DNA of 64,000 bases from Diploscapter coronatus (taxonomy: Eukaryota; Nematoda; Chromadorea; Rhabditida; Rhabditidae), in NCBI GenBank assembly GCA_964036155.1, contig OZ038423.1:372001-436000 (forward strand). Reading direction: 5' to 3'. Shown here in pieces: positions 2,101 through 61,675 of this stretch. The notes beneath the pieces were generated by a model, which had not been told where the DNA came from, did not search any database, and worked only from the letters and a program-made list of their open reading frames with translations. Each line of letters opens with the position of its first letter. Within the stretch, counting starts at the first letter, position 1. The position numbers and the translations under genes are program-made.

Positions 2101-4956
2101 ATGATATCTCCATAAGAACTCCGAACCTAAAATTAGCAACAAAAAACAAAATTGCATTTTAAAAATGTATGTACCAAAATCCTCCAAACTCCGCATCGAT
2201 TTTGACATCTTTATATCTCTGAAGACCGACATATGAAAATATGTACAACGTAAATAGGAATTGAGCAATCTGAAGTTAAATCCAATTTAATTTTAAAGTA
2301 TTTTTTAAATTTGACCTGAACTGTGGTAATATTTTGCGCGATCCAAACCGGCACTTTGACATGCATAGCCCTGAGCATATAATATGAGTACATAATTGTA
2401 TGCACTAGGAAGTTGATTAAGTTAGGCCAGATATTAAATGCGTTATCTTGAGGATAATTGTAGATGCAATAATTTAGGGTTAAGATGTGGTGGTACCTGA
2501 AAAGTTTGGGTTTAGTGTAGTTGCCACCCTTTTTTCTGAGAAATAGTATGGAGAAAAGAAAAATAGGAGGGTGGTAACTAAAAGGAGCCGAAATTTTCTT
2601 TAATCTATAATGAGAAAACTGACACCAATCAAGATTTGTTTAATAATTTGAATATCAAAATATTTATCCTTATAAGAATAAATCTTGTACACATGTAGTT
2701 GTGTAAAGTTATTCATATTGATAATTATAGGTTTGAAATATTGAAGTCAGGACTGTAAATGTTTAAACGCGCGCACATCTAAACATTTACAGATCTGATT
2801 GAAACTAGTGAATGAACTTAGAGCATCATCACCATTTTTAACTTGAAAACTATTCCTGAATTAAGGTTTTATACCAGTGCAAAAATATTAGTGGTCGTTT
2901 TCTGAGCACCAAAAATATCGTATCGCCCAACTCGACGAATTTGCTCATCGTAAATAAAAAAGCGAAAAGTCCCGAAATATTCTGGCCATAAAAATCGCCT
3001 CGAACAATAAACGTTCCTGGAATATTTTAGTCTCGAATTTTATTTTTCTGGATGTAAACGAATAAAATCATTTTTATTCCTTTGGTTTTCGGAAATAACC
3101 AAAAAACTGATAGCTCTTATCAGTTTTCATTCATTTCTACGCCTTAACTGTATGGCGTTAAAGAAAAAGAACACTTCGATTCAGATATACCACATTATTT
3201 TGAAACCAAAATTCCTTTTATTTAGATAATGTGCTTTTTTCAAATTTACCGTGAAATCCACTCCTAGAAAGCTCCTTCTTCAAACCATATCCGGTAGCCA
3301 AAGTTCCAATAAAAGAAAATAAAGCCATAGAAAAATTCCATATTATTAAAGGGCCGGTTAACTAAAGTGACTTTAATTTAATCATGTAATTCTTATTTTA
3401 AAGGCAAAACTGCAACACACAAAAATAATGCCATCAAATCAAAATTGGTATGTTTTATTGATCATAGAATTTCCCTAGTAACGAAATAAAAAAGTATGTG
3501 TCAATGTCTAGAGAGCTCTTCAAATATTGATATTTGGCTGCAAGTACTTTGTCCCAAACACTATTTCTCCTTTCTATCGGCTTGGGACAAAAGTATTCAC
3601 TTTTGGGACAAAATTGCTTGCGGCTTTGATATTTAATTCTGAAAGTTCAAAAAATGGCCTACTTGAAAAGGTTTCTTCAGCGTCATGTATTTCTTGATCG
3701 AGAAGATGAGAATAACATAAACCATCGACACAAAAATCGTCGGAACGAACAAATTATTCATAAACTCTTTAGATTTTCGCGTATTTAATGGGTATTCATC
3801 GAAAATTTCGACAAATCCAACCATTTTATTGAAAAATTCCTAAAATTTCAACATTCATATCGAAAATTCATAGGATAAAGAAAGACAATTGAGATATAAT
3901 GTCCTGAGAAAATGGAGGTTTCAGAAAATATGCAACTTTTTGGAACTTTCAAATTTTTTTGTCCTAGAAGCAAATTAATTATCTAGAAGCAAGAATTTAC
4001 GTTTTCACAACATAACTTCATGTTTCTGAAACATGATTTTCACATGCCTGCAAAAGTTAGTCGCATATTTTCTAGAAGGAACAAACTTACGAGCATATTT
4101 GAACACTAAAAGCGTACTCGGAGCACAATGTTAGAGAGTATTTTTTGAGAGGCAGAAAAGACTCAGAGAGGAAAAGTTAAAACGAGGGGTTAGTCGATAG
4201 GACTGCGTTAGGGGCTATGCATAAAAATGTTCGCTTGAAGTAGAAGATAAAGTTAGGTTTCGATTTTAAACCTTTGGAAAATGAAATAAATCATTTCATT
4301 TTGGAACACATAATATACCCAAAATATCGTAATTTCCTACCATTTTCATTGGAAATTTGGCATTTTTAGATCGACAAGATTATAATTAATGAAAATGATG
4401 TATATTATAGTAAAATCAACATATAAAAATGTCTAAATATGTATATGACACGTCTTCTCATAATGAATATATTTAGAAATACTAGAACATAGATTTGATA
4501 TGCGCCGGGCTTGAAGCTGAAAAGTTCTTAATTTGAAGATCATCTTGATGAGATTATTTTTATGAAAGAGCGATAGAAAGAAATGATGATTTTTGGTGCA
4601 GTTTCAATAGAAATTGTGAGCCAAAAAGATGAAATATTTTTTTAAGATTTGAGCACGTTTGAAGTCTGTAAAAATAACGCTAAATATATCAGTATTTTAA
4701 GAATGTTCTAAAAATTAGCTCATTTTACGAATATTTTTCATATATATTGGCACCTTGTTACGCCTCTCAAAGTACTGATATATAAAAATTCAAAAATATG
4801 ATAACTTATCATTCTTATATCATATGCATAACATATTTTCTATTAAATGCCAAGAAACTTTAAATAAAAACCTTGCAAAATATATAAGTTGATCTGATTC
4901 TATTTTGAAAATTTTAGGGCATATAAAATATTTTATGCATACGCGAATCATTAAAA
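2101..4956. other. Intergenic region
   Basis: No exon with convincing splice sites and codon structure was found on either strand. The stretch is AT-rich, contains one small hairpin (2518-2580) and lies 3' of the potassium-channel gene. Confidence 0.5.
2518..2580. repeat. Small hairpin with GAAATAGT core
   Basis: Arms TAGTTGCCACCC and GGGTGGTAACTA are perfectly complementary around a spacer that contains GAAATAGTATGG. The first bases of the window (about 15-23) also carry GCCACCCT, so a second copy may start left of the window. Confidence 0.7.
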
Positions 4957-7900
4957 TCATAGATAAGCAGGCTGTTCCGGCCTAAGAGCTTGAACCCGCC
5001 GTATATATTCGGATTCGCGGAAGAAATCGGATTGGAACGAGTTGTGCCGTATCGTCGACATTCCTGCGACTAAAATTGATTAGGAAATATTCGCGAAAAT
5101 TTTCAAATTTAATCTAACAAATCCTAAAATTGGCAATTTATTTCGAAACTTTCCGGAAAAGTTTGTGTTATATTTTTGCAATAGGAACATTTATTGTAAA
5201 TTAGAAGAAAAACAAATTTTAAATTTTAAAGTTATTACCTGAGGAAGTTTCATCGATAAATCGCAATTTCATTAGTAATTCGTGGGGCTCGAAAGGTCGA
5301 TCCCGCAATTCGTTATCCAAGAAATCTCGAACATCGTTCCATGTTACCTGCAATTTTACGCTAAAATTGGATCGCTTCAATAAATTCGTGGGTGAACTGA
5401 AGTCGGATTATAGATAATTGGCTGGCTACACGGCACACGATCCTGTTCGTTAACGAACGCAAGTCACGCCTTCTTTCGTTAAAATCATCGGACTCGGCAA
5501 AAGTTCCGCAGAAAAAAAAGCCTCGTTAGTGAACAAGACGGAGCGATGAAAAATTTATACGATCATGTGATTTGATTAAATGTTTCAGAAAACTCTCCAT
5601 TAAATAAAATCTAATTATAAGTAATTTGCTTCGTTATATAAATAAGAATGCCTATAAAGAAAATAAGATACCTTTCCACCCTTTTTCCGTCTCATGGCTC
5701 CCAGCAAAGCTACAATTTCTTTCAACTCTTCCGACATTCCGAGGAATCTGAATACATGTAATAAAAATTTTCAAAAATGTATATATTTGAAATAAACTTC
5801 ATGAAAAATTACGGCTATCTGGAAACCGTGTGACATGTGAAATAGTGTGAGAAAATAAGGCTTATCACCCAAAACCCTACTCTAGTTCACATGTCACGAG
5901 GTTTCCAGGCTACCAAAAATTATTCTGTCCATTTGTTTTTAATTTAAACTATACCGTTTTGCCCGTCCAAAGTAGTGGATTCTGGTGAAGTACGCCTTTA
6001 GATGCGTGGAAGCAAGATCAACGCACATGGTTACGACTGATAGTCCTAAAATTAAATTTTTAAAAGTCAATAAATATCCGCTTTTCTTTCTAAATCTTAC
6101 CAACGATCACAAACGCCACAATGAGTGATAGAAAGACGTAATCGGTAACGACGATGTCTCCCAGACCCACAGTGACGATTAAATTGAACCCAAAGTGGAA
6201 TGCATGGATGAAGGACCAGGCTCTGAGTTTTTCAAATTCATTTTTTCCATTTATTTTACACCATTTTGATCAAATTTCATACTTTCGAATGCTGAATCGA
6301 AAAAAATTCGATTTTAAAAAAACATCTTAATTGTGCGTAAATAGCAGGTTAAATATTTTTAATATTAAAAAATGATATAATACCTTTCCCAGCTTATGAA
6401 CATCGCAGATCCCATGGAACAGTATAGGCAAATACAGGATACGTAAGCGCCTGAAACTCAAATATTATTTCATTTAAACCAAATTTTGATAATATATCTG
6501 AGGTTAGGGGCTCTGTTCATTTGCAGTTATTCAAATCATAAATGTGGTCATCATGATATTCGGACAATTATAACATTTATGGAGGGGTGATATATATATA
6601 TATATTCAAATTATAATAAAATTCACAAATCTACTCCTTAGAAAGCGTGCTCTAATGCTAATATTTAGCGATAGGTCAGATTTCTGAGGTATAGATTTAA
6701 GATATTCATTGATAAAATAAAATGGTGATATTATTTGAAGTGCCAAATTGGAGGGGGGTGCAATCTTGTGTGGAGTTATTGAAATCTAACCGTGAACGTA
6801 CAGAAATTTAAAATTTTATACTTCAAAAGACACTCTATATCTGGGTTTACCAATATTGTCACTGACCGATAACTTGAGACGCGAAATAAATGATGCACAG
6901 ATTTGAATACGCAAATGTGCATTGTGTATCCGCAAACAGTCGTTTACCTAATTCTTTGAATATGATGTAATATCGTAAAGCCTGGTGCAACACAACGCGC
7001 TAATTCGCGCGCATCAAAAGTCAGTGTCATTTACTTCGTCTCAAATGATCGGCCATTGGCAATAATAACACCTTACCTATCGGAAACATCAAACTGCTAT
7101 TTTCTTGAGGAACTAATGAAAGAAAAATTGAAAATGTCTACCTTTGCAAGTGTAAACTTTGAAACAACTACTACTTCTAGTAAAATTTGCATTAAATTTC
7201 ACTAAACTTGACTATGTCTACGGCAAAAAGGAGCTTAAAACTATCTAATAAGCCGACACACTTTTTCAATGAAATTTCAAAGAAATAGTGGTCCAAAAGC
7301 ATTTAATAATCTAAAAAATTGAAAATTGAACTATTTCTAAAGGAAAAAAGCTTATCTAAAGGCGAATTTATGGGCTAAGCTTTGATTTTTGTTAAGAAGA
7401 ACGATGCCAACTTACCTATCGGGAACCACAACTTATCCTCGGCGCCATCCACGCCCATGATGTCGAGTGTGTCCGTGTTGCCCGAGGCCGAAGTCATCGA
7501 TTTCCGACGGCCGTGGCGGATTCGCGAGAAGAATTGCTCAAATATATTATTGATTGGGAGGGAGTGCGTCGATATTCAAAAATTGCACGCTATTCGTTTC
7601 GTTTTTCTTCTACACAATCCACTATTTTGCGTTCTCCAAATTCGATTCTAATTACTGCGTGAATATCGACTTTGCTCTCCAATCAGTGACAACTTCGGTT
7701 TAAATTTAAAAGGAAAATGTTTACCTTAACCTTCCTAACACTCCGATTCCAGAATCCAACGAATTTGAGCAGCGTTTCGGAGAGGAATTTACCGATGTCA
7801 GCGGCTGTGATGAACATCAGGGGGATGCCGATCAGGGCAAACGCAACCGAGAAGACCTTTCCGACGTCGGTGTCCACCGACACTTCGCCGTACCCTAAAT

Positions 7901-10900
7901 AACTTGTTATCAAAATGTCTATTTGGAAGCCGCGAGACCACGAGACATAGGGCGAAATAGCATAGGGTACGGGGGATGATAGGCTCTTTTTTGCTACACT
8001 ATTTCTCAATGTCTCCGTGTCTCGTGGTCTCGCGGTTTCCAAGTTGACAAACTGATGATTTCGATAAAAATTAGCAACTCTTTCTAGATGAAAGCTAAAT
8101 TAAATTCTGATAACTTGGATAATTCGTTACTTCTTTACCCATAGTTAAGGGAATAGGGGAGAATTACTATATGGCGGAGTGTGTGCGTGTGCCTTTTCCA
8201 CAGTATTTCTTTCAAATTTCATGCTCTCGTCTATCTCTCTAACTATAGGACTCCGCCATTTAGTAATTGCCGGTATAGGGACAAGATAGGAAGAGGCGTT
8301 TTCCTATGCCATTTCGTAGGTAGCGATGCAACTACTTTTCTAGATTGCCTAAATTCCCTACCGCAAGTCGTCAACACCGTGAGCACATAAAGTAGTGCTG
8401 TGGGGAATGTCCATTTATTATGGATGTTGGTCAAATCGTCGGGTCGATTCAACTCCTTCCTGATCGGTCGACGGTCATCCACTGTCTCCGACACTCGCAC
8501 CATCCATTCTCTGTTAAATAGGGAACATTTGGGTATGTTTCAGCAAATCTTATGATTCGTTTCCTGCTTTTAACCCATATTCATTAATTTAAAGAGCCTA
8601 CTGAAGGACAATGAATTTCATCTCCACATAATCTTGAAATTTTTCAGTGTTTCATAAAAATCAAAACCCTCAAATTTCGATTGATAAATTTATTGAAGAC
8701 CTGTGCGCTATCAGATAAAATTTCATAAATCCCTAAACTCCTACCGAAACTTGGCTGTCCATTCTTCCGCCGTCACCGCACTCATACCGTGCTGAGCATC
8801 GCTAACAATTTTCCAGCTATCTTGCGTGAAATTCGACATTAGATGGGTTAATCTAAATTATTTTACCCCAGTCATTTATCTTCATCTCTTTCACTCTCAT
8901 TCATTATAGCATTATAAATAGACAATACTTTTCCTCTACATAATCTTAAAATTTAAATGAGAATATAAATTGTACTATTACCTCTACTATATAGAGATGT
9001 AAGTAATCGAAAAATTGAAATGTTCTAGTTGATATTTGAGCTACCTAATCAATTTCCTCGATCGTGCCTGTAGCTCTGTTTTCGTTTCTAATAGCATTAG
9101 AATCCAGGCTCCGAAGCATAGGTATCCGATAAGAACCGAGACGAGTATGATATGCGGTATGAGGATTTTGATGTACTGAAATTCAAGTTATAAAACTCGA
9201 TGTTCCCGACAACAAATTCTGACATCCGGGTGTCAGATTATCTTGCTAAAATGCTACATTTATGGGCTATTTTGTTCTTTGTAAACTTCAACAACACTCT
9301 AATATCCGACGTCGAAGTTGGTTTTTTGAGCTCATTATATAGATTTCTATGTTTAGATACTATTATTTGTCATGCTATTTCTCACATCTCCTTGTTTTTT
9401 ACTTGTTCTTCCAAAAAGCCCTCTCGAATTCCAAAAGCTGTGTGTGGTGTCAGAAATAGGGGATATTGATGACTGGTGGGAGTTGAAAAGAGCATCCAAG
9501 GGCAATTCAAAAATTGAAAACCGAAAAGGCGAAAAAGAGGTTTTCGTTTTGTTTTCTTTAGAAACTCCTTCAGAAAAAATCAATTTTCAGAAATTATATT
9601 TTTCAGAAGAGGAGAGATTTACGTAAAAATTATGTATTTTTCTAGAATTTCAGAGTCATTTTCGTCTTTTCGAAATATGAGTAAACATCGATTTTTCTTC
9701 ATAAGAGAGAATCCCTAAGAAAATCTGAACCCCAAATAATCCCCTTCAAAAAGTACGAGTCCAATTCAAAAGTAGGCAAAAGATAAGCACTTTCGAAATT
9801 TATGGGGCGAAATTTCGAAATCTTCGAGTCAAATTGCCGCTAATCTTGATAAATTTTTTGCGACCTCAAATTTATGAGTTTACTCGAATTTTCGAGATAA
9901 AAATTGCGCAAGTTTGGAAATATAGGGTTCAGCAAATTTCATAAAATAAGTGAGCTATTTTTGGCGATAATGCCAAGCGAGTGGTCATTAGATTTCAACA
10001 AAAAACTTTAAATTTCATGAATACGTTTTACCATTCTCTATACTCTATATAATCTTTTCTTTTTCTAGTTGATTAGTAGGCTTGGATTATGCGAAATAAC
10101 TATCAAAATGACTTTCAATCACTTCACTTTTACTGCTAATATATATAGCCTTTTCTTAAACATTTAGAGTTCCCAATTGGATATACCAAGCCTCATTTTT
10201 AAATCAATTTTTGGACATAAAAGGTGATCTGAGTTGCAAATAAGACTTTTGTGAAGAAAAAATCAAAAAAGGATCCCTGACCGAAAAAATCGCAAAAACC
10301 TATCGCCCAAAATGAACACATTTTCGCAAACAAATCTATGATTGTGCGTGGGTATTTTATCCTCATTTTTTGCACAGAGCCATTTTATCAGGTCTATCTT
10401 CGAACTAGATAGGGTTTAAGACATTTCGGTTTGAAGGGTACTCTCTTCCCAAATTTTGCTTCAAACTACCACGCTTCTACCAAAAATGCATTTGTGCAAG
10501 AAGGTGAAGCTTGGGGACTAAACATATTCATACAATTAGCTTCAAAAACTGCTTTTATCACCTTCTTTAGAGGATTTGCGAAGTTGTGTTGAAACAACGT
10601 GTTATAAAGTCTACCTTAACAGTTTGCTGGGGGCAACTTTTGGGCTCTTTGTCGTCCTGATCGTCCTTGATCGTGTCCGTCACCACCGTAGCTCCGTCTT
10701 CCGCATCCAGGAGCGCGGATTGCGAATTCAACGGAACACCCTCCCATCGGGCGGTTACGTGGTCTGAAAATTTATCGAATAGTTTCCAGAAACATTATTT
10801 TTCAACTAATAATCCTTCAATAAACTTATCTTAGCATAAACTACATATGATTTTATATTGCTTATTATATCGACGATTTTCTATCGATTTTTTTAGAAAG

Positions 10901-12198
10901 TTGGTAGACTTTATTCCTGAATATGCATGTGTTATTATCGATTAAGAGAGAACGCGTCGATATTCCAAATTAGACGCTATTCGTCTCTCGCTTCTCTTCT
11001 ACGCGACTATTTCGCCCCAAATTCGATTTATAATTTCTGCATGAACATCGACTTTCTCGTCAATCAACAATAGATTCGTCTTTCTGAAGTTCAGGGTTGA
11101 AAATTTGAAATTCGGGATCCTAGAATGAGTGGATCCGAATTCCGAATTTCAGCTCCTTACCAAGTTATGATTGGGCTTGGCCACTCGAAGGTTTGTGGAT
11201 AACCCAATTTGGGTCTGGGATTTGCACATAGATTAGAGTACAACGCCAGAGAGATACTCTAGCATTGGATATGCCCAAATTTGAGAATGATGAAATCGAA
11301 ATATCCTCGAAACTTGGAATGTCAAAGAGTGGCCAAAGAGTGAACGAATTTGATGATGGCTATGCTTCGACATTTCAACATATTTTATATCTTGTTTGAA
11401 TATTGATAAGTGAAGTTTTAGTCTTACAATGTAATAAAACATGAGAAGCCGAAGAAGATTTGGTGTAAGTCCATAAATGTTTCAAAAATTCTCAAATGCA
11501 AAAGTCCGAGTATAATTATATATGACTTTCTGTATTGCACACTCACTTTTTGAGAAGAAAATAGGGAGGAAGGTAGGGGAAAATTAAAAAAGTGGGTGTG
11601 GAATACAAGAGACCATTATATTATTGTCGTTGTCGCATAAAAATATCATGCAAAAGAAATCAAATTCTCCAAACCAATGATAATCTTTCCGTCGTCCTGT
11701 ATGGAAATTGTCGGTCTTCGCAGGACGATTTTTTGCTTGCTGATTCTTCGATCTAGGTCCCGTGCCGAGAACACCGAGGACACTGGCGAGGCGCAGAATT
11801 CGAGGATATTTTCCAGGTCTTCCTGCCCTGCTCGGGGAAGACTCCTTTGTCTGTCCCTACTACTTCTGATCGCGTGCGAGTCATCGATGATACGCAACTC
11901 TTCAGGATGGACGAATCGATCGTGCTGCTGCTCATCACCCTCTCGACTACGGGACAGAATTTGAGGGATCTGGGAAAATAAGTTGAATTATATGAGAAAT
12001 GAAATCTAGAAAGAAAATATAAAGATGCTACCTTGGATATGATTCAAAACCAATGTTAGCGATTCGATTTTCGGAAGTAAAGCTTACCTGATAACCCAAC
12101 CTAGCGTCGAGATGTGGCGCTACATGGTATTGTTGCGCGCTAGGTGCGATCGTCAGTCTCCTTAGGTTTCCATGTCCATGCGGCGAATAGAAGAACAT
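4957..12198 (-). CDS. TWK-family two-pore-domain potassium channel
   Basis: A K+ leak channel subunit of the plasma membrane, presumably dimeric as in the family. Exons, in transcript order: 12198-12088, 11969-11675, 10763-10615, 9175-9045, 8852-8745, 8510-8362, 7894-7725, 7536-7416, (7112-7077 optional), 6450-6384, 6222-6101, 6045-5955, 5747-5672, 5347-5239, 5063-4957. All phases agree, giving 601 aa, or 613 with the optional exon. Seen in order: a long cytoplasmic N-terminus (about 200 aa, charged and Ser/Arg-rich), M1 (IPHIILVSVLIGYLCFGAW), pore 1 with filter TTCGYGE, M2, M3 (AYVSCICLYCSMGSAMF), pore 2 with filter TVGLGD, M4, and a cytoplasmic tail rich in charged residues ending EQPAYL. 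The core from 10763 down is secure. The two N-terminal exons are an inference: the donor at 11675 is a GTTTGG, and an in-frame stop follows eight codons later if it is not used. Confidence 0.88.
5813..5914. repeat. Intronic hairpin, GGAAACC family
   Basis: Arms with GGAAACC and GGTTTCC plus an inner pair GTGACATGTG / CACATGTCAC. The loop side carries GTGAAATAGTGTGAG. It lies in the potassium-channel intron between exons 5955-6045 and 5672-5747. Confidence 0.8.
7077..7112 (-). other. 36-nt cassette exon of the potassium-channel gene
   Basis: A 36-nt open segment flanked by a TTCATTAG acceptor and a GTAAGG donor. It enters and leaves in phase 1, so inclusion adds exactly 12 residues (VPQENSSLMFPI) between the M2-M3 linker and M3 without changing frame. 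It repeats the FPI that ends the preceding exon. Seen: length, phase and splice sites. Inferred: alternative use. Confidence 0.6.
7549..7685. repeat. Intronic hairpin, TTGATTGG family
   Basis: Left arm TTGATTGGGAGGGAG and the following CGTCGATATTCA pair with TGAATATCGACTTTG and CTCTCCAATCA. The loop holds CCACTATTTTGCG. It begins a few bases from the acceptor of potassium-channel exon 7416-7536. Same family as 10931 and 58951. Confidence 0.8.
7921..8043. repeat. Intronic hairpin, GGAAACC family
   Basis: Very well paired arms: TTTGGAAGCCGCGAGACC and its partner near 8018-8040 (GGTCTCGCGGTTTCC). Inner loop contains CTACACTATTTCTCAA and GCGAAATAGCATAG. It lies in the intron between pore-1 exons of the potassium channel. 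Confidence 0.85.
8160..8272. repeat. Intronic hairpin, GGCGGAGT family
   Basis: Arms GAATTACTATATGGCGGAGT and ACTCCGCCATTTAGTAATTGC. Flanked by TAGTTA-type sequence also seen in the copies at 43336 and 43679. It shares an intron with the hairpin at 7921. Confidence 0.8.
10931..11075. repeat. Intronic hairpin, TTGATTGG family
   Basis: Arms TATCGATTAAGAGAGAACG with CGTCGATATTC, pairing with GAACATCGACTTTC and TCGTCAATCAACAATA. The loop carries GCGACTATTTCGCC. Lies in the long intron upstream of channel exon 10615-10763. Confidence 0.75.
11529..11610. repeat. Hairpin, TTGTATTCCACACCCAC family
   Basis: Left arm TCTGTATTGCACACTCACTT, right arm AAGTGGGTGTGGAATACAAG. The loop is purine-rich on this strand (GGGAGGAAGGTAGGGGAAAA). 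In the long channel intron 10764-11674. Confidence 0.8.
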
Positions 12199-13626: not shown

Positions 13627-13643
13627 TATCGAAAATGGTCTAC

Positions 13644-14956: not shown

Positions 14957-17526
14957 CTGAACTTCTCGTCCCGAAATGCTTGCGAGTAGATCATTTTGTT
15001 GGGTGGAAGATAGCCGATGATCAAAATTCAGGAGTTAAAGGTAGGTAGGAATTAAAAATTTTTAGGTAAGAGTTCGAAATCCGATGGGTGGAGCGTATTG
15101 TGAGAAATTTTAAGTCGGAGTGGTAATATTTAAATTGAAGCGCTCGAAATTTTGTCCAAGATAGTCCTTTGCTTCAGTGCTGGATGATAGTCCTGATTAA
15201 AAACGTCGGAGTCAGAAAATGTTTGCCGGAGATCGAAATTAAGGCCTAGAACTTCATCCTTAGAATTAACTTAGGGTAAACAGAAGATTCTCCTCATTTA
15301 ACGTTCCTCGAATATCCGAGATTTTGCAGATTGAGTTTCTCGTTTTTCCTATTTTGAGACAATCTAAATTTCCGACGTTGATAAAGTGAAAATGCAAAAT
15401 TAATGAGGTAGGTTAGGGGAAATGGTAGGGAAAAGTTGGAAATTAAGATATCATATTAAAATGAGGTTTTTATAACAAACAAATTATAAATATGGAAAGA
15501 AAGATAAAGTCATAGAAAACTACTATATTTTTCTTGCAAACTCAAGTCTATGTATGGAAAACAATCAGGAAAAACCGCTAGAAATGCTGGCAAAATCGAG
15601 TTATAAGCCTGATTTGACACCCTAGCATGCTTATGTGGTTTATCTTATTTATCATAGAATAAATCTACGAAGAAAACTAAAAAACCCTGATATATTAATG
15701 ATTTCAATATCTTAAAAATGAAAGATTCGATATATAAAAATAACGCTATACCATTTTCATTAACCCTATGTTTTTAAGAAAAGTTAAAAAATCTGCGTAT
15801 AAAATCTACCATAGGAAGTCATGATATACATGAAAAGATTAAAAAATCCTAACATATATATATAAAAAAAAACAAACAAAAAACTTTACGCTATGCTATT
15901 TCTGTTGCAAAAAATTGATTCCCGGAAGTGGAAAAGTCAAAAAGAGGCTCAATGGCGGGCCATTAAAACTTAGCGCATGAAAAATGTTATATATCTCAAG
16001 ACATCTGAAACTTTTTCGACTATAAAATGATTTTATATCTTAAAATATACGAGAAATAAAATTCGATTAAGATCTAAAATAACATGGCACGCATATATTT
16101 GGTATGATATATTAGAAAAGCCTAAGTTAAATTCGAAATAAATGTAAAGCTTCAGATTTAAAGTAAATTATATGGTTTTTAAACACATATGAATATGAAA
16201 TTTTAAATATATCATATTTAGATATATTACATTACAGATATGATCAAATTCTTAAATTGAAAAAAGAAACTATGAGATGCTCCCAAAATGGGACGCACAT
16301 TTATAGCGCCCCAAATATTTTATGCAAGTCGATTGGCCCTAGGCCCTTTAATGTGAGGCCGGTTTCGTGCGTCGTTCGCAATTTTATGATCTTAGCTCAA
16401 AAATTGAGACATACATTTTTGGATCGGAAAAAGATGCTTGGGTAATAAGATGCGTTGGGCATTCGGACATCTCGCAACTTTGCGAAATAGTATGTGGAAA
16501 TGTAGAAAAGGGCTTTTTCTCACTTTTGTATGCTATCTCATAAAGTTGTGAGATTTCTGAGTTACCGATACACGTTTATTTCATGGATAGGTTTCTGGGT
16601 TTACGAAGAATATTTGAAACTTTCACATTTCTAATTAACTTTTAACCGCACGCAAAATATTCAGAAAAATGTTTCAAGATCAATCAAGAATGATCTATTA
16701 TCGTATCAAATAACCAGATAGACTTTACTTTCGAAATCAGTGGGTTCGATTTGGAAATAGTGTGAAAGTTTGTTGTAAAAATTTTTATTTTTCGGCCTTG
16801 CACTTGTTATATAAATGGGGAGTAATTAGTCCTGAATATAGATCTCCAAATTTCAAATATAGTTGATTTTCGAAACTCCAATTTTTCCCGAAAGTGTCAA
16901 AGTACAACATACAACTCGTGTGGTATGTTTCTAGTTATAGCTCTAAAAGAAACATTGTTGCAGAACGTCTAGAGATAACTAGAATTCTCGAGAGAGTCAG
17001 AGATATCAGAGATGGCTTGAAATTGAAAAATTAGGGCATTATTCATATCGCGAATAAAGCTATCATTCATATCCTGCAGTCGAAATGAAGCGTGCACTTT
17101 TTGAAAATCAGGTTTTCAAAAAAGCGAGGGGTCGAAAATAGGTTCATGGGAATTATTAGCACTAATTAAAATGAGAACGAGAACACGGAGAGGATAATTA
17201 TGTTTCAAGAAAAGTCGAGTCAAGATATAGCCCATCGAAAATTGCTAGTATTCTTGTGCTGAATGGGCTATTTTAGTTTGGCTAACTGTAAGCAATTAAG
17301 ATTTGATAATTTTGACATTCTATTGAATTCCTAGCATAACTTATTTTTAACACAATATTGGATCCTCAAAACACTTGCAATATATTCCTAAAAATCAATT
17401 TGAACGAAATATATGGTGATTAAGATATGAGTTTATATTTAATGCAAAATAGTCCATTTAAACCAAAATAATAAACACGCTGTATTCTCGAAAAAGTTGC
17501 AACATATATAAAGAAAATGCTCCCAC
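14957..17526. other. Non-coding stretch, intron-like
   Basis: No supported exon. Contains the small hairpin at 16468-16556; otherwise AT-rich sequence with no clear signal. Confidence 0.4.
16468..16556. repeat. Hairpin, CTCGCAACT family
   Basis: Arms ATCTCGCAACTTTG and AAAGTTGTGAGAT; the left half continues GCGAAATAGTATGTGG and the right half mirrors it with GTATGCTATCTCA. Same arm family as 55370-55484. Confidence 0.75.
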
Positions 17527-41617: not shown

Positions 41618-41703
41618 ATCAGGGTTGTACGAACTGAACTGAACTTCGAGCTGTCTGGAAGTTCAGTTCAAGTTCGATTTTTTCGAACTTCAGATAGCCC
41701 TGT
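41618..41703. repeat. Hairpin between convergent genes
   Basis: GAACTGAACTGAACTTC is followed by GAAGTTCAGTTCAAGTTC and a further GAACTTC; CAGGGTTGT at the left and ATAGCCCTG at the right are outer partners. It sits between the 3' ends of the kelch and ligase genes. A related CAGGGCTGTACGG start occurs near 39299. Confidence 0.75.
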
Positions 41704-41765
41704 TAATAATCAGATGTGTACACTGTATCTGTGTTTAAAGTATAAGATTTTATTGATTAACTAGC

Positions 41766-43801: not shown

Positions 43802-43836
<35 letters not shown>

Positions 43837-48991: not shown

Positions 48992-51728
48992 TCACTCGCT
49001 ATTGTCAATACCGATATCGACCATCAATTTCTTCAGGTAGTGAATTTCTTGCTGCAGGTCGCCAACCTTAAATTGAAGTCTTTAAATCTGGCCCATTACT
49101 CAAGGTAGCACATAGTACGGCAGAGGTAATACAGACATTGATGAAGGCAGTATGGCGAAAGCTAATGAAATTTGTTTATATAGAAATTTATCAAATTTTA
49201 TTATGATTTGCCGTACTACTTTTATTAAATGTCCTAAATTCGAGCTTTAGTTTAAATTTTACCTTCTTTTTCAGGTCGCCATTTTTGTCCAAGAGCTCTT
49301 TCATCTGGTCCATCTTGCTTTCCTTCTCTTTTCTTTTCTTCTCTCTAAAATATTTTAACTTAAATAAACTAAATAATAAAATTTAAGGAAAGTTTTTTCT
49401 TCGTTCAGAAAACCCAAAATAATTCTATTTTCAAACGAAACTTCAATTCAATATTTTCTATTTGGCAAATGGAATTTTTAGGCTCCTAGAAAAAGACACC
49501 ACTTTTTTCTTTTCGTCTCTTGCTTTCTCATACTATTTCTTAGAAAGGGTGGTGTCTTTTTATATGAGCCAATTTTTACTATGGACATATTAAATAAATA
49601 AACCTATCGTAAAATCTAAAATCAAAGTTCCCCTAAATTAAAAGTCCACCCCCAAAATGCCAGAACTATCCATTATCCATCTCAGATCATCCAAGACAGT
49701 TTTTATAATGCTCTTTTGAGTTTGCAGTGTGACTTTATTCGTGATTTGAAGTGATTACGGTCATTAGATGAAGAGTTATGGCGGTTTCAAATTTGAATTT
49801 TTTTTTTTAATTTTGGGATCGAAAAATAAAAGTCTACGGACTTCTATTTTTGATTTTACGGTACCTATATCTAGTGGCAGCCAATCGATTCTGAGCCTTC
49901 TTCCTCTCTCTTCTCTCGGGTGTCTTGTAGCGACCCCCTCCTGAAGACGTAGTTTCGTAGGTCTCAGTTTCGTCGGAGGACCAGATCTAAAATATAATAA
50001 TTAATTTTTTTAAACTTAAATATGTTTTAAAAAGTAATCATATTTTAGTTCAAACATATATAAAAGTTGATTTTGTACCAAATTTTCAGTAATTATTGGA
50101 AGTCTCGAAAATTCTCTACATTTATAAAAAAAGTTATCAAAACGATTCACAATTGAAGCTGTACTAAATTAATTATGAGATAATTACTCCCAGTTATTTC
50201 CTTAGTTGCTCTAATTAAATCTTACCGTAGAGTTAGGTGAGGACGTAGCGTTGCTTCTTCTCTCGATTTCCTCGCACTCTCGAACGATCTCCTCCAGGAT
50301 TTGCTCCTTAATTAGAATAATTAAATCAATTAGTTGCCTTAATTCAAAAATTGAGTACCATTTTTCTATTATCAGAAAAGATAATCATTAACCTGGGATC
50401 TAGTAGAGAGCCCATTATATAATATATCTAAATGCTAGACTAATAGAATATGAGATACTTTTTAAGTCACGCTTAGCTCCGAACTTTAAAAATTCGAAGA
50501 GTACTCCCGGACTTGGCTTTAAAAAATTTAGTCACCGTCAGCCCTAGCCGCGTTATACGTTATATGACTTTAAAAGAGGTGCATCGTTTTTTCACGTGAA
50601 TTTCAGGACCGCTTTATAAGTATACTTGACAGGGAAATACGCTGCATTATTTCAGTCATTTTGCATCAGAAACTGACCCGATCCTAGTATCAAGGTTTAT
50701 CACTTTTATCGCTAGAATTGCGAACGAAAAGGGGTTCCCCGATTAAATTTTATGTGTACGCAAATTTCAAAGTTCAGGTGCAATGAAAATGATTTTCATG
50801 TGAAGAAGCGTTATCAATGATCTTCGTATTCGTGCTTTGATACTAGTGTTAGAGATTTGCATGTATTTCATATTTATTAATATATTTAGAGTTAGAAATT
50901 CGCACCTATTGAAAGCCAAAAAACTCATCATAGTTTAGAATAAATTATTTTGAAGCATATTCAAAATAACTATTGCGTTATAACCAATCATCGATTGAAG
51001 AACTATCATCAACTTATCATAATCATCTGATTTGGACAATTTTGAAACATTTAAAAATCAAATCTAAATAATCATACCTTAGGCTGGACCGGAGAGTGTT
51101 CAGGCACGAGTTCTTGGTAGATGAGTTCTGCCGACTCTGCGTTGGGAAGTTCGTTGTCGTTGACGAAATTGATGGGTTGGATCTCTTGTATTGGTTGGTC
51201 TTGGAACGCGTAGTGATAAGGGGACTAAAATAATTGTTATTTAAAAAATAGCTAGGTTTAGAGATTTTTAATAATTATTATATCAATAATGAGAACTTTC
51301 TTTTCAAAAATATTTTCTTTGTCAAAAATGGCAAATTCTATGAAAGGACGAGTACGCTTCTTTCGAGCTAGAACGTTTCTTACAACTTCAAGAGAAACGT
51401 TATTTTTGCTGTTCAATATAGTAGTATATCTTGATTATATTTAACAACCTATTTAAAATACAAAAGGTTGGGATATTGTAATAATCCTACCATTACTAAA
51501 TACTTTTTTTTTTTAAATTAATTCTATTTCATATCTTATTGTAAAAATAATATTAAATTAAAATATACCTGATTAAATTGACTATTATCTTGAATCGGAT
51601 TAGAATAGAAGACTGGTTGATTGTCGAAACTTGAATAGAATTGGTTTGAGGTGGTTAGAGGAGTGAAGTCTGTGGAAGGCGAAGAGACGACGATCCCTTG
51701 AACCTCAACAAACACAGCATCCGGATTC
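48992..51728 (-). CDS. ATF4-type bZIP transcription factor (main ORF, 5' end open)
   Basis: A sequence-specific factor of the ATF4/ATF5 stress-response type, presumably nuclear. Exons in order: 51728-51569, 51224-51078, 50306-50226, 49986-49865, 49344-49263, 49066-48992 give 221 continuous codons and a TGA. The basic region PERRERKKAQNRLAATRYRE carries the ATF4-type signature NxxAATRYR; it is followed by a leucine zipper (MDQMKELLDKNGDLKKKVGD, then LQQEIHYLKKL). Upstream is an acidic, Gln/Pro-rich region as in activation domains. The zipper and basic region span the last three exons. No methionine occurs in frame upstream of the basic region within these exons, so the N-terminus lies in another exon. 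The exon at 52022-52123 joins out of frame (see next entry). Confidence 0.85.
49481..49568. repeat. Intronic hairpin in the ATF4-like gene
   Basis: Arms GGCTCCTAGAAAAAGACACC-ACTTT and AAAGGGTGGTGTCTTTTTAT-ATGAGCC. Loop CTCATACTATTTCTTAG carries the shared core. Confidence 0.85.
49645..49850 (+). repeat. Dispersed repeat, copy 2
   Basis: Colinear with 38125-38330 (CAAAATGCCAGAACT, GACAGTTTTTATAATG, TTGAAGTGATTACGGTCATT, GAGTTAT, long poly-T, CTTCTATT). It lies within an intron of the ATF4-like gene. Confidence 0.65.
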
Positions 51729-52123: not shown

Positions 52124-52893
52124 TTTATCGGTTTTTAACTGTGTGGAAAGGAAACTTGAACGTCAAGTAGAGTTAAGGTTTACCTAAAAATATAAAAATA
52201 AAAATATATAAACTATAAATTCGAGACGAAATTTCCACAATTAAAATCGAATTCCAACGCTGTCCTAATAAAAGTAGTCTGAGAAAATGCCTATTTTTAC
52301 AGTGAACATTTTATAAACGAGGAGATAAAAGAGTTTAGAAAAATCGATGGAAATTAATCGATAAATTTCGCGTGATGTGCGTCCGATAAATGCTAGCTAG
52401 AAAGGGGTGAAATCAAAGAAAGCAGGAAAAAGAGAGAGAGGAAAGAAGAATACGCTTTATATCTATATCAATGGGGAAATGGCTTGCCACACATAATTTC
52501 ATTATTAATGACGTCATCATATAATATATGATAATCAATATATCAAAATAAATATCGAAATTTAGGCCAACCAAAAAATCAATATTTCTAAAATGCGCTA
52601 AATCAAACAGTGAAAGAATGACGCAATAATAGAGAAAATGGCATCATACAAGTGAAACCAAGCTAAGTATCTTCTCTTACATATATGGGAGAAAATGATG
52701 ACATGAAGGAAATGTTGTTTGTGACTTTATTTATCATCAAAATCCGATTTTTGGAAACTCGTCACTTTTAAAGAATTCTGAGTTTTGCCAAAATGTTGAT
52801 TGATATTTAGCCCAATTCCAAAGAACTCGAAGCAATTATTCATCATCTTTTGCATTAATCACTCAATTTCTTGAAACATTCTTTCAAAACTCA
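52124..52893. other. Intergenic region between P-glycoprotein and ATF4-like gene
   Basis: About 0.8 kb between the P-glycoprotein stop and the ATF4-like first exon. AT-rich; it should hold the ATF4-like promoter and the P-glycoprotein 3' flank. No further feature seen. Confidence 0.45.
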
Positions 52894-52899
52894 TTTATT
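52894..52899 (-). terminator. Probable polyadenylation signal of the P-glycoprotein gene
   Basis: AATAAA on the minus strand about 30 nt after the stop codon at 52928. Confidence 0.5.
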
Positions 52900-52927
52900 C
52901 AAAACCTTAACAACAGCTACAAAATAA

Positions 52928-55900: not shown

Positions 55901-58900
55901 ATTTCGAAACCTACCAAAGCCAGCCAGCACACCCCGTCTAGAATGCCCACCACCAAGAACAGTTTAGCCCATTTATGCCCCAAAGTCAATAGATCTTCAT
56001 CTGTATGAGAATATGCCTAAAACGCGAATTTATGGAAAATTTGTAAAAATAATGGTCAAATTTACATCGATCATTCTTGAAACGATGAATGCCAACGATG
56101 GCTTGCAAAGACCCTTGATTCCACCAACTATCAGCCCAGTGATAATCAGAATCATGATAGGCCTCGAGTATGTCATTAGTCTGATCAGTCTACCCTTCTC
56201 CGCACCCTCTTCGTCGAGTTCTAAATTATAAATAAGAAATACCGGATTTAAAAATAGTAATAACCTTTCTTTAAGCGCTCTACATCGTCATCGTATGCTG
56301 GTACTTCCGGATGGGAAGATTGAGATAGAACCGAGTGCTGGTTAGAGAATAGTCTCTGGAAATAAAAAATTAAAAAAAAAAACGCATTTTATTATAATTA
56401 AAATATAAAAACCATACGATTAAAATGAATTATTTGTATTAGGAATATAATTATCTTCATCAGTTTTCTTATGTAAATTATCACGTTATTTATGTTATCG
56501 TATAATTAAAACGATAAAATTTTAGACATACTGATCTTCATGAGTTTTTATTTTTTAAATTTTATTTAGGTTCGTTATGTTATCAGATTAATCAAACTGT
56601 CCCCGTTAGAAGCCTTCAAAATGTCACGTTTTCTGAAACCTACCTCTGGTGGCTCATGTGACACTGTTTTGGAAGTGGTTCTTCGTTTTCTCAACCCACT
56701 CGGATTATGTTCTTCGCCATCTTCGCCAATTTCCATTAGCGATTGTGCCATCACCATTTCATAATATTCACCCCTTTTCGACATTAGTTCATCGTGAGAG
56801 CCGACGTCTATTATCTAAAAATGGGTGTATTTTATTCTTTATTATAGACTTATGTTAAAATAGAGTCCATATTATTATTTTATAATTTTAACAAGTCCGG
56901 ATTTTACAAATTATCGCCGAATTAGGTGTTATTTGACTAGTTTATAGTTTTAAAGAAGCATATTTTTATCGAAGTTAATAACAAAAAGGCCCAACCTCTC
57001 CCTTATTCATGACGAAAATCCTCGTGCAATCCCGAATCGTCGCTAGTCGATGAGCAATTATCAAAGTGGTCTTGTTCTGACAAGCCTAAAATTTATTTAT
57101 AATAAAGATGCTACAAAAGTAGTGGTTTAAAGAAGCTTTTTCATCGAATGTTCTTGATCCCCCCTCGTTCTAAGTCTATCTAACATGGCTTAAATATAAG
57201 ACATTAAATACGTTTCAAAATAACGAGGATATCTTATTAATTCGTATATATTAATGGTCGACTCGTACTGACAATGAGGTTTTAATATAGCATGATCATA
57301 AAATTTGATTACGTTCTAAAATATTGCTCATTTAACAAACTTCTCAAAGCTCGACCCGTAAAAACTCCCAAATCCACATCCGCAGAAAAAATTGTATGTC
57401 GTGTTGGGAGAGAAAAAGAGCATGTCTTCTTTTCCTCTCTTGAGCAGGTGCACTATTTTCTGCGGATCGAGTTTTGAGAGGTCTGTCATTTAATTCCGAA
57501 TCGTGTTAAATGATCTTCGAGATGATGGTCATTGACGTTAAAATTTAAAACCCTCACCTTATCAATCGCTTTCTGAACCGCAGCCTCGCCTTGTGAATCT
57601 AACGCCGACGTCGCTTCATCTAACAGCAATATTTCCGGTTCTCGAATCAACGCTCTCGCAATTGCTATTCGTTGCTTTTGACCGCCTATAATTAGACTAG
57701 TAAAATATCCAATTAAGCTAATTAAATAGCTAATTACCAGATAGTTGTGTTCCCCTTTCCCCAACGATTGTTTTGATGCCTTTCGGAAACGCAGACACGA
57801 AATCGTAAGCATTAGCTCGTTTTAGAACGTCGCAAATTTCAGGAAGCGTAGCTGATGGCTTGGCGAATCTAGGATTATTACACTCAACAAAATGTTATTT
57901 CATTATTTCAGGATTAACTTAAAATGAAGGCCATACTTGATCCGTTATAAAATCTATACTTTTACCTAATATTTTCCTCGATAGTACCGGAAAATAATAT
58001 GGGTTCCTGGGAAACAATTCCGATTTTGGATCGAAGATAGTTTATGTCGAGATCACGCAAGTCTATACCGTCGATTTTTATCTGTAAGTTCCACATTTTC
58101 AAAAGTCTATATTCCTATTCATATACGCCCAATAGCACTATATTATCTAACGCAATGAGCATTAAATTCACTACGTTACAAGCCTTCTGAAGCAAAAATT
58201 CATTTTTTAAATATAATTTTTCAAAACATTTTTATCAAACTTTTTGAAAAATTATAACTTATCTTAATCTTACCGTTCCCAGATGTTGTTCGTAATATCT
58301 CAGGAGTAAATTGACTATCGATGATTTTCCTGAGCCACTAGCGCCAACAACGGCTACTTTCTCTCCTAAATTAGCATATAATGCTAATAAATAAGTCAGT
58401 TTTAAACGGCTATTTTTGAAACCCCAAAATATCATGATGCTAAATTACTCCTTATTGTATTATATATTAAAAAATCATATAGGCAGGGATAGCAGTTTGT
58501 AAATGGTGTAATGACGGAATGACGTAGCGTAAAATGACGAAATGCGCCCTTTTTCTTAACAAATCCTGTCAGTTTCTATTGTGTTCAGTTATTTGTTACG
58601 TTTCGTCAAACACTAAAACGCGTGTTTCGCTATTTCGCGCGTTATGTCCATTCCGTCATTTACAGGTTGCCGCAGAGATACAATATCCTTTTTCGTATTA
58701 ATTCATCATGCCTTTAGTTTTTTTTTCCAAAACACCTTTTTAAAGATAATATGAAATTACCAGGCTCCACACAAAACGAGATCCCCTTCAATACATTAGT
58801 CTCAGATCTGGTTGGATACGCAAATACGACATTCCGCAACTCGATCTTACCCTCCAGAACAGAAGGCTTGCTACCGTCTTTCCTCTCAGATTCGATTTCG

Positions 58901-61675
58901 GGTTCCTAAATACAAATGCTATGTTTTGTGAATTTCGATAATTTGATGTATTATTGATTTGGAGAGAGGACGCGTCGATATTCAGCAAATTACGTTATTC
59001 GTCTTGTTTCCCTTCGGCGCGACGCACTATTTCGCTCCTCCAAATTCTATTTCTAATTGCTGCTGCATGAACATCGACTTTGCTCTCCAATCAACGATAA
59101 TTTCATATAATACAATGATATAGCCTAGGGAGTACTCTTTAAAAACGATGTGTTTCAAAATTTGAAACGATTCAATGATCTCATCTCTCGACTGCACCAT
59201 GTGTTCACAAATTTCCCTCATTTAATAAAGAGTCGAATTTTTGATGACGGGTACCGTCAATCATGTCTGAGATAAATAATCTAAACTATTAAATTATACA
59301 GTACCCTTTTCAGCCATCTGATTAGTGGTTTCGCAGCCCCAATGCCCATGCCGATGACCGACAAATGGCTACCGCCTTCCTTCAGATTATGGGTGGCGAA
59401 TAGCACGGAAAATAGAACCTTCATCACATCACCGCCCTAAATTAGATATTCGCACAATTCGTTACTCCGTATTTTAGGAAATAATATATGTTTGACCTCT
59501 TGTATTCCACACCCACACCCACACTCACTTTTTTTATTTTCCCCTAGCTCCCTCTCCCCTACCCTTTTCTCAAAAAGTGGGCGTGGAATACAAAACGCCT
59601 TATATGGTTTTAATTAAAGCGACCTTGATATCTCCTTGGTAGACGTAGAGTGTGCCGAAGTAATAGGCGCAGAATTCTACTGCATATCTGAAGCATTATC
59701 ACTTTAGATATATGATATAAACAGTTGAGTCCTCCGACAATTTTAATGGTTAGATAGTACGACGAAATTTTTTTTTGCATTAATATAAAGATACAATAAG
59801 CTTCAAAATATCGCATCTTTCCAGTGAACCAATTAAGGACATTACGAGCTCATGAAGCTAGCCACAGTTGAATTTACTCACAAACTAAACGACTGAAATC
59901 CGTCTAGTATCCCACAATAGATCTTGTACTTTATCGCGATCCACTTTCTGAGTTCCAGAATCTTTTGGTATCTAAAAATGCATAAATCGTGTTTTTCTTG
60001 GAAAGAAAGTACCTCGAAAGTTCCCTAAATTGGCCGTTGAAAGCCATGACGGTTTTTATTGATCCTAAGGCTTGAGAGGCGATTGCCCCGGCTTTTTCAT
60101 TTTCCTTCGACTTCTTCTCGTACATGTCGGACATCCACTGAAATTAAAGCCTTTAAACATAGATAGATTTTCAAACGCGCATTTTCTCGTTATTTCAAAT
60201 ATAATGTTTTGCAGTTCTAACTTACGATAAATTAAAATTTATGCAATGCGTATTTAAAAATTTGTTTACTAAAAATATAACGTTTCGTAGTTAATTACCT
60301 ACAATTTAAGTTAGGAAATTTATATATTTCGAAGTACAAAACTTTAGCCTAAAATTTGTCTTTGTGAAAGATAGGTCTAACTTTAAGTACAATTATGATT
60401 TATGAAAATATCCTTAACCATACTTTAGCCAGATATATCGTTCCAGTCAGTAAAAACGGGGATACTGTCGAAGCGATTAATGCTAATTTCCAATTTATCG
60501 AATACCCACTAGCAAAAGCGATGATGCATTCGGAAATCAGCTGAATCGTCCAACCGAGTTTGTTCGTGATGCCTTCTCTAAAAACTCATAATCTCCAGGA
60601 AAAAGACGTTTTTGTAAAGTTCATCAAATTCGAGGGTGAATTTTGTTAAAGAAGGAAAAATAAGGCCAATTAAAATAAAATAGGTATTTTACCTAATTCG
60701 CTCGATATTATCGTTGAGCAAAACGGTGAACTTTCCCGTGGGATTTCGGTCAAATTGAACGGCGTCCTAAAAATAAAGACTAGGTTTAAATTATACCAAT
60801 TTAATAGTCATAGCTAGGACGCAATCGTTTACAAATAATCTATGAAAATGTTCAAAATTTAAACACATTTTAAAAATGCTTAAATCTGACCTGTTTCAAG
60901 ATATGGCCCATGAAAGTGGTCCGTAATCGGAATATCATGCACTCCCCTACATATCCAATGCAAGAACTCTAAATTTTTCATCTTCAAAATTAGCATAATC
61001 ACAAAATTTACATGTAGCGTAACAGTAATAAAGGTAAAGACTCCGATATAAACGTAGATCAGACAGTTTCGAACCATACCACTAACAAAAATATCCAAAG
61101 CGTGCTGTCTAATTTCAGTGTCTAAAATATACAAGTTTCTTACTAATTTTAATAAAACTAGTATGCTAATTTCAACAATTTTGTATGCTAATCTTAGTGA
61201 AATTTGCATGATAATTTCAATAAAAATTGTGAATAATATGTATTAATATTTTCAATATTTTACCTGTAGTATTTAGCAGTACGTTAGTTAGATTCATGAA
61301 ACTTTGCCCCAAATCACCAATCAGCAGGGCTAACATAGGCAATGCTACCCCACTCGCCATAGCGCTAATTACTCCAATCGAAAACATAAGTTTCTCAAAT
61401 CCAGTGGTTAAGGAAAACTAAATTTTCGCAAAATTATTCTGTAAATGCCTGAAAATGTTCAAAATTGCCGAAAACACATACCAATCCTTTAATCACCGAA
61501 AACGTTGAAACTTTGATATTGTCACTGAACAAAGAAAATCTAATTTTCAAAAAATACAAAATCTCGACTAACTTTTCGTCCGAATTATCATTATCAAGAA
61601 GATCCTCTCTGAAAATCAAATTCTATTTGCGAGAATCTTTGCAATTTCAACGTACCTATCATCAAAATCGGTCAT
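52928..61675 (-). CDS. P-glycoprotein (ABC transporter subfamily B, full-size)
   Basis: An ATP-driven exporter of hydrophobic compounds in the plasma membrane. Thirty-five exons run from 61675-61656 to 53013-52928 and total 1292 codons including TAG (1291 aa, normal for the family). Order seen: short N-terminus MTDFDDR, first membrane domain (about 40-370, with [14 protein letters not shown] and [18 protein letters not shown]), first ATP-binding domain with Walker [11 protein letters not shown]-loop [10 protein letters not shown], signature LSGGQKQR, Walker [13 protein letters not shown] and switch IIAHRL; acidic/basic linker; second membrane domain; second ATP-binding domain with [45 protein letters not shown]; end [12 protein letters not shown] and a short tail. 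All catalytic motifs are intact. Seven introns carry hairpins. The splice after 54299 uses a GC donor. The halves share an identical 52-nt intron. Confidence 0.97.
54474..54551. repeat. Intronic hairpin in the P-glycoprotein gene
   Basis: GCTTCTTGTATTTTTTATCC pairs with GGGTAAAAAGTACAAGAGGC; pyrimidine-rich loop. Ends (CTTGTA/TACAAG) resemble the TTGTATTCCAC family but the inner arm differs. Confidence 0.75.
54925..55012. repeat. Intronic hairpin, TTGTATTCCACACCCAC family
   Basis: CCTTTTGTATTCCACGCCCA pairs with TGGGTGTGAAATACAAGAAG; loop GGGAAGGGGGATAGGGGAAA. P-glycoprotein intron 54888-55077. Confidence 0.85.
55370..55484. repeat. Intronic hairpin, CTCGCAACT family
   Basis: AATTTCGCAATCTCGCTAC pairs loosely with GTAGAGTTGCGAGATC; an inner ATAGTATAT and GATAGTATTCC recall the 16468 copy. 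P-glycoprotein intron 55307-55657. Confidence 0.6.
57342..57480. repeat. Intronic hairpin in the P-glycoprotein gene
   Basis: TCTCAAAGCTCGACCC and CATCCGCAGAAAAAATTG pair with ACTATTTTCTGCGGATCGAG and TTTTGAGAG. Core word GCACTATTTTC is present. Intron 57086-57557. Confidence 0.75.
58492..58670. repeat. Intronic hairpin in the P-glycoprotein gene
   Basis: GCAGTTTGTAAATG and ATGACGGAATGACG pair with CATTCCGTCATTTACAGGTTGC; inner arms GACGAAATGCGC and GCGCGTTATG/CTATTTCGCGC partly pair. Intron 58366-58760. Confidence 0.7.
58951..59096. repeat. Intronic hairpin, TTGATTGG family
   Basis: TTGATTTGGAGAGAGGACGC and TCGATATTCAGCAAATTA pair with TGCATGAACATCGACTTTGC and TCTCCAATCAA. Loop GCGACGCACTATTTCGCTCC. 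Intron 58906-59304. Confidence 0.8.
59494..59600. repeat. Intronic hairpin, TTGTATTCCACACCCAC family
   Basis: CCTCTTGTATTCCACACCCA pairs with AGTGGGCGTGGAATACAAAA; the left arm repeats CACACCCACAC. Loop is CCCCTAGCTCCCTCTCCCCT. Intron 59437-59623. Confidence 0.85.

Follow-up and report, generated by a model that had tools for sequence, protein, structure and literature searches.

Hairpin elements of the nematode Diploscapter coronatus whose arms are unrelated in sequence share a conserved centre, a purine-rich core of about 18-20 bp beside the loop. The elements that carry it are MITEs, mobile and inserted as a unit with a target duplication. Plausibly, if somewhat short of probably, the core is a module that helps MITEs to amplify, the inner arms changing in concert within the stem. 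MITE success is usually attributed to terminal repeats alone. If the reading is true, an internal module common to families with unrelated arms, and possibly with unrelated transposases, helps to decide which elements amplify.

Sequences analysed

The window is a stretch of 64,000 nucleotides (C2:372001-436000). It was analysed together with a further 120 kb of C2 (184 kb in all), 80 kb of C1 and 110 short stretches from elsewhere in the genome. The 169.7-Mb assembly consists of three contigs, two of them 87.7 and 82.0 Mb long, and C1 and C2 align in the region of the window with a mean identity of 92.7%. The available text of PMC5483258 gives D. coronatus a diploid genome of 170 Mb, 2n=2 and a heterozygosity of 5.7%; C1 and C2 fit two diverged haplotypes of one chromosome, 170 Mb in all.

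The core in hairpins with different arms

A gapped inverted-repeat scan of the 184 kb gave 59 hairpins with a score of at least 30, and none in two Markov shuffles. The word ACTATTTC was contained in 13 of the 59. It is a piece of the longer purine-rich core, approximately GMGAAATAGYRTGRGRAAAAGAA, which is also written as GCGAAATAGTGTGGGAAAAG. A preliminary description had named eleven hairpins carrying the word near the loop, and all eleven words were recovered to within a few bases. Nine are exact copies of ACTATTTC or GAAATAGT (at 2540, 5839, 7998, 11006, 16484, 21993, 43376, 49532 and 59026) and two are variants, GCTATTTC at 44506 and ACTATTTTC at about 57451. On both strands of the window there are 20 exact copies of ACTATTTC, nine of which had been named.

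The word is in excess. It was observed 57 times in the 184 kb against 10.6-19.3 expected from Markov orders 1-4, about three to four times the expectation for orders 2-4. When the expectation is computed from the word's own 6- and 7-mers, the strictest case, the count is 57 against 37.9, an excess of 1.5 times that ranks 16 among 30,294 8-mers. The word CACTATTTC was found 21 times with 1.9-3.9 expected. A local inverted repeat of at least 24 was present at 19 of the 57 ACTATTTC sites, at 2 of 162 sites of ten anagram words and at 36 of 600 random positions, so that the word is concentrated in hairpins, as had been supposed. In the window alone the values were 3/20 against 0/58 for the anagrams, and 8/20 against 6/58 when an inverted repeat of at least 20 was accepted. 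A purine- and AT-rich core raises word counts, and the excess is smallest by the strictest expectation, but chance or base composition as the source of the excess is ruled out by the anagram and shuffle controls and by the 17-mer TTTTCYCACACTATTTC, which occurs exactly 374 times in the genome (180 forward, 194 reverse) against 0 for the reversed 17-mer.

When the hairpins were grouped by their outer arms, ACTATTTC ranked 2nd-3rd (ties included) by number of arm clusters among 6,538-10,086 8-mers. Some of the other top-ranked words, GCGAAATA, CGAAATAG, AAATAGCA and GAAAAGAA, share bases with it or lengthen the purine core; others are ubiquitous A-rich words. With a leave-one-cluster-out matrix (this and the other core matrices, including the looser-clustering, class I-trained and family-level ones, were seeded from a consensus read by eye in these hairpins), a score of at least 10 was reached by 36 of 91 hairpins, which represent 30 of 77 clusters. 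The controls reached it in 90 of 1820 cases for shuffles and in 100 of 1820 for hairpin-free windows. When arms were clustered more loosely (E<=0.1), 60 of 116 hairpins were chained together, which weakened the test, and 2 of 37 clusters lay over the 99% control level and 7 of 37 over the 95% level; the stricter clustering was used for the leave-one-cluster-out and class I-trained tests. A matrix trained on class I found the core in 13 of 79 hairpins outside this class at p<=0.01 (about 0.8 expected) and in 3 of 237 hairpin-free windows. These 13 matches are 13 arm clusters, yet only about nine to eleven independent families: 80507 and 130300 are one family (K), 65383 and 119474 look like one, the ends of 147857 resemble those of class I (both judged by eye), and 65383, 132832 and 55518 fit the core poorly. 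The anagram, shuffle and hairpin-free controls thus agree with the preliminary description in that hairpins with unrelated arms share a conserved centre, the agreement being weaker under the looser clustering.

Many hairpins lack the core. Families T, C, O and TAC gave core matches with p values of 0.057-0.80, none significant, and in the family of 68697 and 72047, to which the hairpin at 57451 seems by eye to belong, significance was not reached (p 0.18 and 0.057). As judged by eye, an arm can adjoin the core on the one side or the other, and the distance from core to element end varies from about 26 to 66 bp. The hairpin elements of the window are listed in Table 1.

Table 1. Hairpin elements of the window, with their core words and the state of the other haplotype where recorded
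Element and core	Position	Strand	Remarks
Family E MITE (GGC..GCC-type ends), core GAGAAATAGTATGGAGAAAAGAA, GAAATAGT at 2540	2508..2589	+	both haplotypes, 95% across 261 bases, flanks included
Class I hairpin CTGGAAACC..GGTTTCCAG, core GTGAAATAGTGTGAGAAAATAAG	5819..5908	+	
Class I-b MITE, core word on both sides of loop: GAAATAGC at 7954, ACTATTTC at 7998	7916..8049	-	
Hairpin, arms class II-like by eye (AATTACTATATGGCGGAG), variant core CCACAGTATTTC	8162..8268	-	class I matrix p 0.012
Family D element, TA-bounded ends, core word GAAATAGT, ACTATTTC at 11006	10933..11072	-	
Hairpin, core GCGAAATAGTATGTGGAAATGTA	16463..16560	+	
Class I-b MITE, ACTATTTC at 21993	21902..22032	+	first core copy GAGCAACAG here, GAGAAATAG in other haplotype
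MITE GGTCC..GGGCC	34944..35053	+	absent from other haplotype; core p 0.13, not significant (34944-35050 scored)
Hairpin, class II-like arms by eye, core GTGAAATAGTGTGGGAAAAGCGA, ACTATTTC at 43376	43330..43470 (scored stretch; approximate ends)	-	
Class I-a MITE GGCTATTTGGAAACC.., GCTATTTC at 44506	44435..44546	-	8-bp duplication GTTGTTTT/GTTATTTT, one mismatch; other haplotype without about 20 bp around the opposite core copy
Family B MITE GGCTC..GAGCC, core AAGAAATAGTATGAGAAAGCAAG	49481..49570	-	perfect 8-bp duplication AATTTTTA, empty site in other haplotype
Hairpin with ACTATTTTC, by eye family of 68697/72047	57430..57480	.	
Family D element, TA-bounded, CACTATTTCGC at 59025	58949..59099	-	

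Genome-wide, 40 of the 100 listed loci of the exact 17-mer (374 in total) were fetched; having been chosen by the 17-mer, they are uninformative on core identity. The scan found an inverted repeat of at least 20 across the core in 27 of the 40. Judged by eye from the end motifs, 39 of 40 look like hairpin elements, with some eight or more types of arm among them, whereas one (L066) is no hairpin. The core lies beside the left arm in 28 of the 40 and beside the right arm in 11 (by eye; the left part of L063 is incomplete). Among the 100 of 374 17-mer matches listed, 35 lie within 4 Mb of the start of C1 (about 9 per Mb) and 29 within the 28 Mb that follow (about 1 per Mb).

Mobility and target duplications

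Comparison of the haplotypes over 64 kb showed two hairpins that are present in one haplotype only, 49481-49570 and 34944-35053; most of the other hairpins among those listed occur in both. The first has a perfect duplication, AATTTTTA, and an empty site with one substitution, and the second has an imperfect target duplication of about 8-9 bp (with a mismatch). In class I, duplications of 8-9 bp were seen by eye in four of six copies: 138191 (ATTCATAA twice), 119144 (CATTTTTGC twice), and 116613 and 44441 with one mismatch each. None of this length was seen by eye at copies 103209 and 150551. Automated calling over 116 hairpins gave two duplications at 8 bp and two at 9 bp, down from 79 at 2 bp; it failed because hairpin edges rarely extend to the true ends, and the duplications were then read by eye.

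Families E, K, D and class I-b are dispersed, each with at least 40 scored candidates with matches (self and allele included); K, D and E were picked for closer study after the core had been noticed in them. The family copies differ from the query by about 11-25% and so are old. A TA target duplication is the mark of a Tc1/mariner-like MITE. Family K (TATTGTTGATGCC..) and family D (TA..TTGATTGG..) are mostly TA-bounded in the nine copies of each, with no longer duplication seen among these copies and no empty site seen for either family. Taken as simple hairpins, the family D elements at 11006 and 59026 are weak, with local scores of 8 and 18, yet they belong to one TA-bounded family with inverted ends. 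The consensus of K matches the class I core with p 0.0007 and that of D with p 0.003-0.005, both before correction for the number of families. Since K and D are TA-bounded and nevertheless match the core, it is likely that the core spans transposon types, from GGC-ended elements with 8-9-bp duplications to TA-bounded ones. It is a more daring and rather unlikely proposition that the core is a portable module, taken up by MITEs of different superfamilies on either side of the loop and read by a host-encoded factor, in an asexual-type nematode genome.

Kept ends and exchanged inner arms in class I

Class I elements have the ends GGCAACTTGG../..CCAAATAGCC. Over 22 elements the identity of the outermost 14 bp was 79-82% within and 77-81% between arm subfamilies, values that are inflated by locating the ends through the best match to the end consensus. 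The inner arms were 64-68% identical within subfamilies and 45% between them (shuffled 44%), a difference that is partly circular since class and subfamily labels were assigned by eye from the arms. Loops were 74% identical inside a subfamily and 52% identical across subfamilies, compared with 49% after shuffling. Inside one element, the left and right inner arms were on average 65% identical (1 of 22 elements dropped). The idea that the terminal repeats are not kept, unlike those of normal MITEs, therefore holds for the inner arms, which are at the shuffled level, and fails for the outermost 14 bp. Whole loops cluster with the arms, which by the preliminary description's own standard counts in part against it; what is common across the loops is the core of about 18 bp and a general C-rich composition.

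The ends also have a fixed polarity relative to the core. CAAC is on the left and CTAT on the right in 17 of 22 class I elements, the opposite was found in none, and in five one side was undecided (3 of 25 class I loci, those without clear ends, were left out of the count). This bears on the main idea of the preliminary description, in which template-switched inverted duplication rebuilds entire arms about a centre that stays. The exchange of arms around a conserved core and the different layouts of class I and class II/III are both what that mechanism could give. Building arms outward from the centre should, however, give identical ends, and an asymmetry fixed in all 17 decidable elements argues against the remaking of whole arms in class I; in addition, loops cluster with arms, and no concerted arm change was noticed by eye among the allelic pairs listed. 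Duplication of whole arms is quite improbable on these grounds, and template switching that stays inside the inner stem is possible. The ends and the core of class I appear to descend together, with inner arms changed on both sides.

Plain descent would account for part of this. In that case one old MITE lineage kept its core and ends while arms and loops drifted, and the core has no current role. The subfamilies of class I share ends, end polarity and core, and the copies are old. Against this, the core bearers differ in ends and duplications (K and D against the GGC group), the arm meets the core by eye on its 5' side in class I and on its 3' side in class II/III, and a neutral core is unlikely to outlast the arms so far. 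Plain descent is for these reasons an unlikely explanation, if one of some weight. A homology of class I and class II/III loops, with the core inverted in a common C-rich loop, was tried and rejected, the scores being hardly above those of shuffles (mean 19.2 against 16.8, the shuffled 95% level being 24).

Constraint on the core

Between haplotypes, 14 of 188 sites of the 18-bp core differ (7.4%, small numbers resting on 12 hairpin sites), as do 404 of 5657 in the rest of the hairpins (7.1%) and 2936 of 56086 in non-hairpin DNA (5.2%). For the 8-base word taken by itself, the count is 4 of 88 (4.5%). There is no clear sparing of the core in inserted copies; judged by the 8-base word, a modest constraint after insertion is possible. 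Among family copies the core words of four families are 0.97-0.98 conserved and the element means are 0.85-0.91, figures that are exposed to BLAST-selection and CpG bias. The most conserved window overlaps the core in two of the four families, E and I-b, and not in K and D. We read this as selection acting on which elements amplify and not after insertion.

The core might otherwise be a host regulatory site, for a promoter or germline factor, that was spread by MITEs or selected for an advantage in transcription or chromatin. The analogy is with the m1/m2 motifs of Caenorhabditis CERP2/CELE2, to which HIM-17 binds, a protein that has a THAP domain and is related to a transposase (PMC9757741). 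As described in the available text of that paper, one motif pair is found in two MITE families in different arrangements, and the present core resembles it in being one motif set in more than one family, differently arranged. In Caenorhabditis the motifs are recognised by this host protein, and many copies have turned into promoters; for the present core, binding or a promoter role would be putative. The same text reports HIM-17 orthologues across Eurhabditis except Diploscapter, and a host site here therefore needs another factor. That nearly all fetched 17-mer loci are in hairpin elements (39/40 by eye, 27/40 by scan), and that constraint between haplotypes is not clear, speaks against a host site, which is improbable.

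A structured RNA hairpin would favour G.U over A.C pairs on the strand that is transcribed. The stem mismatches showed no G.U preference and no significant bias for either strand (purine strand G.T 100 against A.C 121, p 0.18; 76 elements, those with fewer than 14 pairs omitted), Rfam gave 0 matches over the window and loci L017-L023, and nothing points to RNA. The other suggestion of the preliminary description, a recognised loop, fits the pattern of kept and exchanged parts; recognition would be a prediction from the DNA, and the mismatches carry no RNA signature of it.

CTGTTTC is the nematode piRNA (Ruby) promoter motif, with the 21U start about 42 nt downstream, and CTATTTC is one base from it. 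That the core is such a motif (Ruby/SNAPc) is nonetheless very improbable indeed: CTGTTTC shows no excess in the 184 kb (observed 25, expected 24-28; such loci may cluster elsewhere), and ten U1 genes have by eye no common CTATTTC at a fixed upstream place, L035 having it further upstream and L036 having CACTATTTAA. The piRNA motif goes back to snRNA promoter elements (PMC6436959, available text). U1 snRNA itself gave 37 matches (36 above the cut-off), dispersed over both haplotypes, and the ten that were inspected show several different upstream sequences.

A proposed role of the core in amplification

In the explanation preferred here, the elements are cut-and-paste MITEs of many families, and a large share of the amplified ones carry the purine-rich core of about 20 bp beside the loop. 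The core would act as a cis module that aids amplification, for example by binding a transposase or a host factor. Each successful new source element would retain it, and single copies would not be clearly spared later. In the main group (GGC..GCC ends and 8-9-bp duplication) the outermost bases are kept too, and the inner arms between ends and core diverge freely but jointly. Their joint change would come from copying of one stem side onto the other, by stem-internal template switching or gene conversion, before amplification. Several observations stand against an amplification module. Many hairpins (T, C, O and TAC) are without the core, which is therefore not generally required; its distance from the ends varies, which a usual transposase site would not do; the looser arm clustering gives a weak signal (2/37); and searches for Merlin, MULE, P and hAT found no transposase with matching ends.

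The Merlin signature is an 8-9-bp duplication, GG-type ends and an IS1595-like transposase, and that of hAT an 8-bp duplication with CAGGG-like ends. The Merlin/IS1595 transposase (PF12762) and the MULE domain each gave 0 matches, and the P-element domain gave 0 matches too, but its controls likewise gave none. Duplication and ends of the GGC group are Merlin-like, and it is possible that its Merlin partner is extinct. The hAT dimer domain was found in nine places. Two copies (L139:3107-4527 and L140:3133-4516) are 98.8% identical over 1,389 bp, with CAGGGATGTTCGCGG ends, GTGCGGTGCG-rich interiors and perfect, mutually different 8-bp duplications, and represent a recently mobile family. They resemble the core bearers in the 8-bp duplication and differ in their ends; neither the GGC end motif nor the core word was found inside them. 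The ends of the hAT family examined are CAGGGATG, from which the class I ends GGCAACT/GGCTATT differ.

Relation to known elements

The CMITE families of Acropora have different TIRs and an internal region that is more conserved than the TIRs, for which the authors propose a role in transposition (Wang et al. 2010, PMC2872659). By the available text, the elements are alike in their conserved interior and variable TIRs, in a kept terminal motif (CCYT there, GGC-type here) and in one empty allele with a duplication. An interior that is more conserved between families than the TIRs is found here as well, in the core matches of 13/79 hairpins and the inner arms at the shuffled level. CMITEs have a single TSD type, TTAA, are related to piggyBac, and have an internal region of 75 bases and TIRs of 13-14 bp, as far as that text describes them. 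The present elements differ in a core of about 20 bp, long complementary arms, and 8-9-bp duplications or TA-bounded ends in place of TTAA; the core can be on either side of the loop, and the end polarity is fixed. The coral elements are the close precedent, and the present ones add the shorter core, the long complementary arms, the several kinds of ends, the placement on either loop side and the fixed polarity.

MITEs derived from the P element in Anopheles share the 8-bp target duplications, and P transposase binds about 20 bp near the TIRs (PMC1562414, available text); GGC ends and a core at variable distance from the end set the present elements apart. Among the open-access titles and abstract openings listed on Diploscapter TEs, MITE interiors and palindromes, and piRNA, none describes the core. 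It is a concrete sequence that can be tested, and the fixed polarity with exchanged inner arms makes the joint evolution of complementary arms testable where two diverged haplotypes record insertions.

Other differences between the haplotypes

The top-scoring palindrome of the 184-kb scan is 28537-28741 (87 pairs), with GATATAGGGCATAGGG in its arms, and the other haplotype has about 30 additional bases inside it. At 70-2098 of the window, about 2 kb of this haplotype is missing from the aligned C1 stretch, and at 41630-41676 a short repeat, AGTTCAAGTTCGA, is of unequal length between haplotypes. Queries with short flanks at C2:452490 and C2:466555 match C2:81787938 (98%) and C2:81796648 (94%), near the opposite end of the contig, and these paired matches suggest a duplication common to both chromosome ends.
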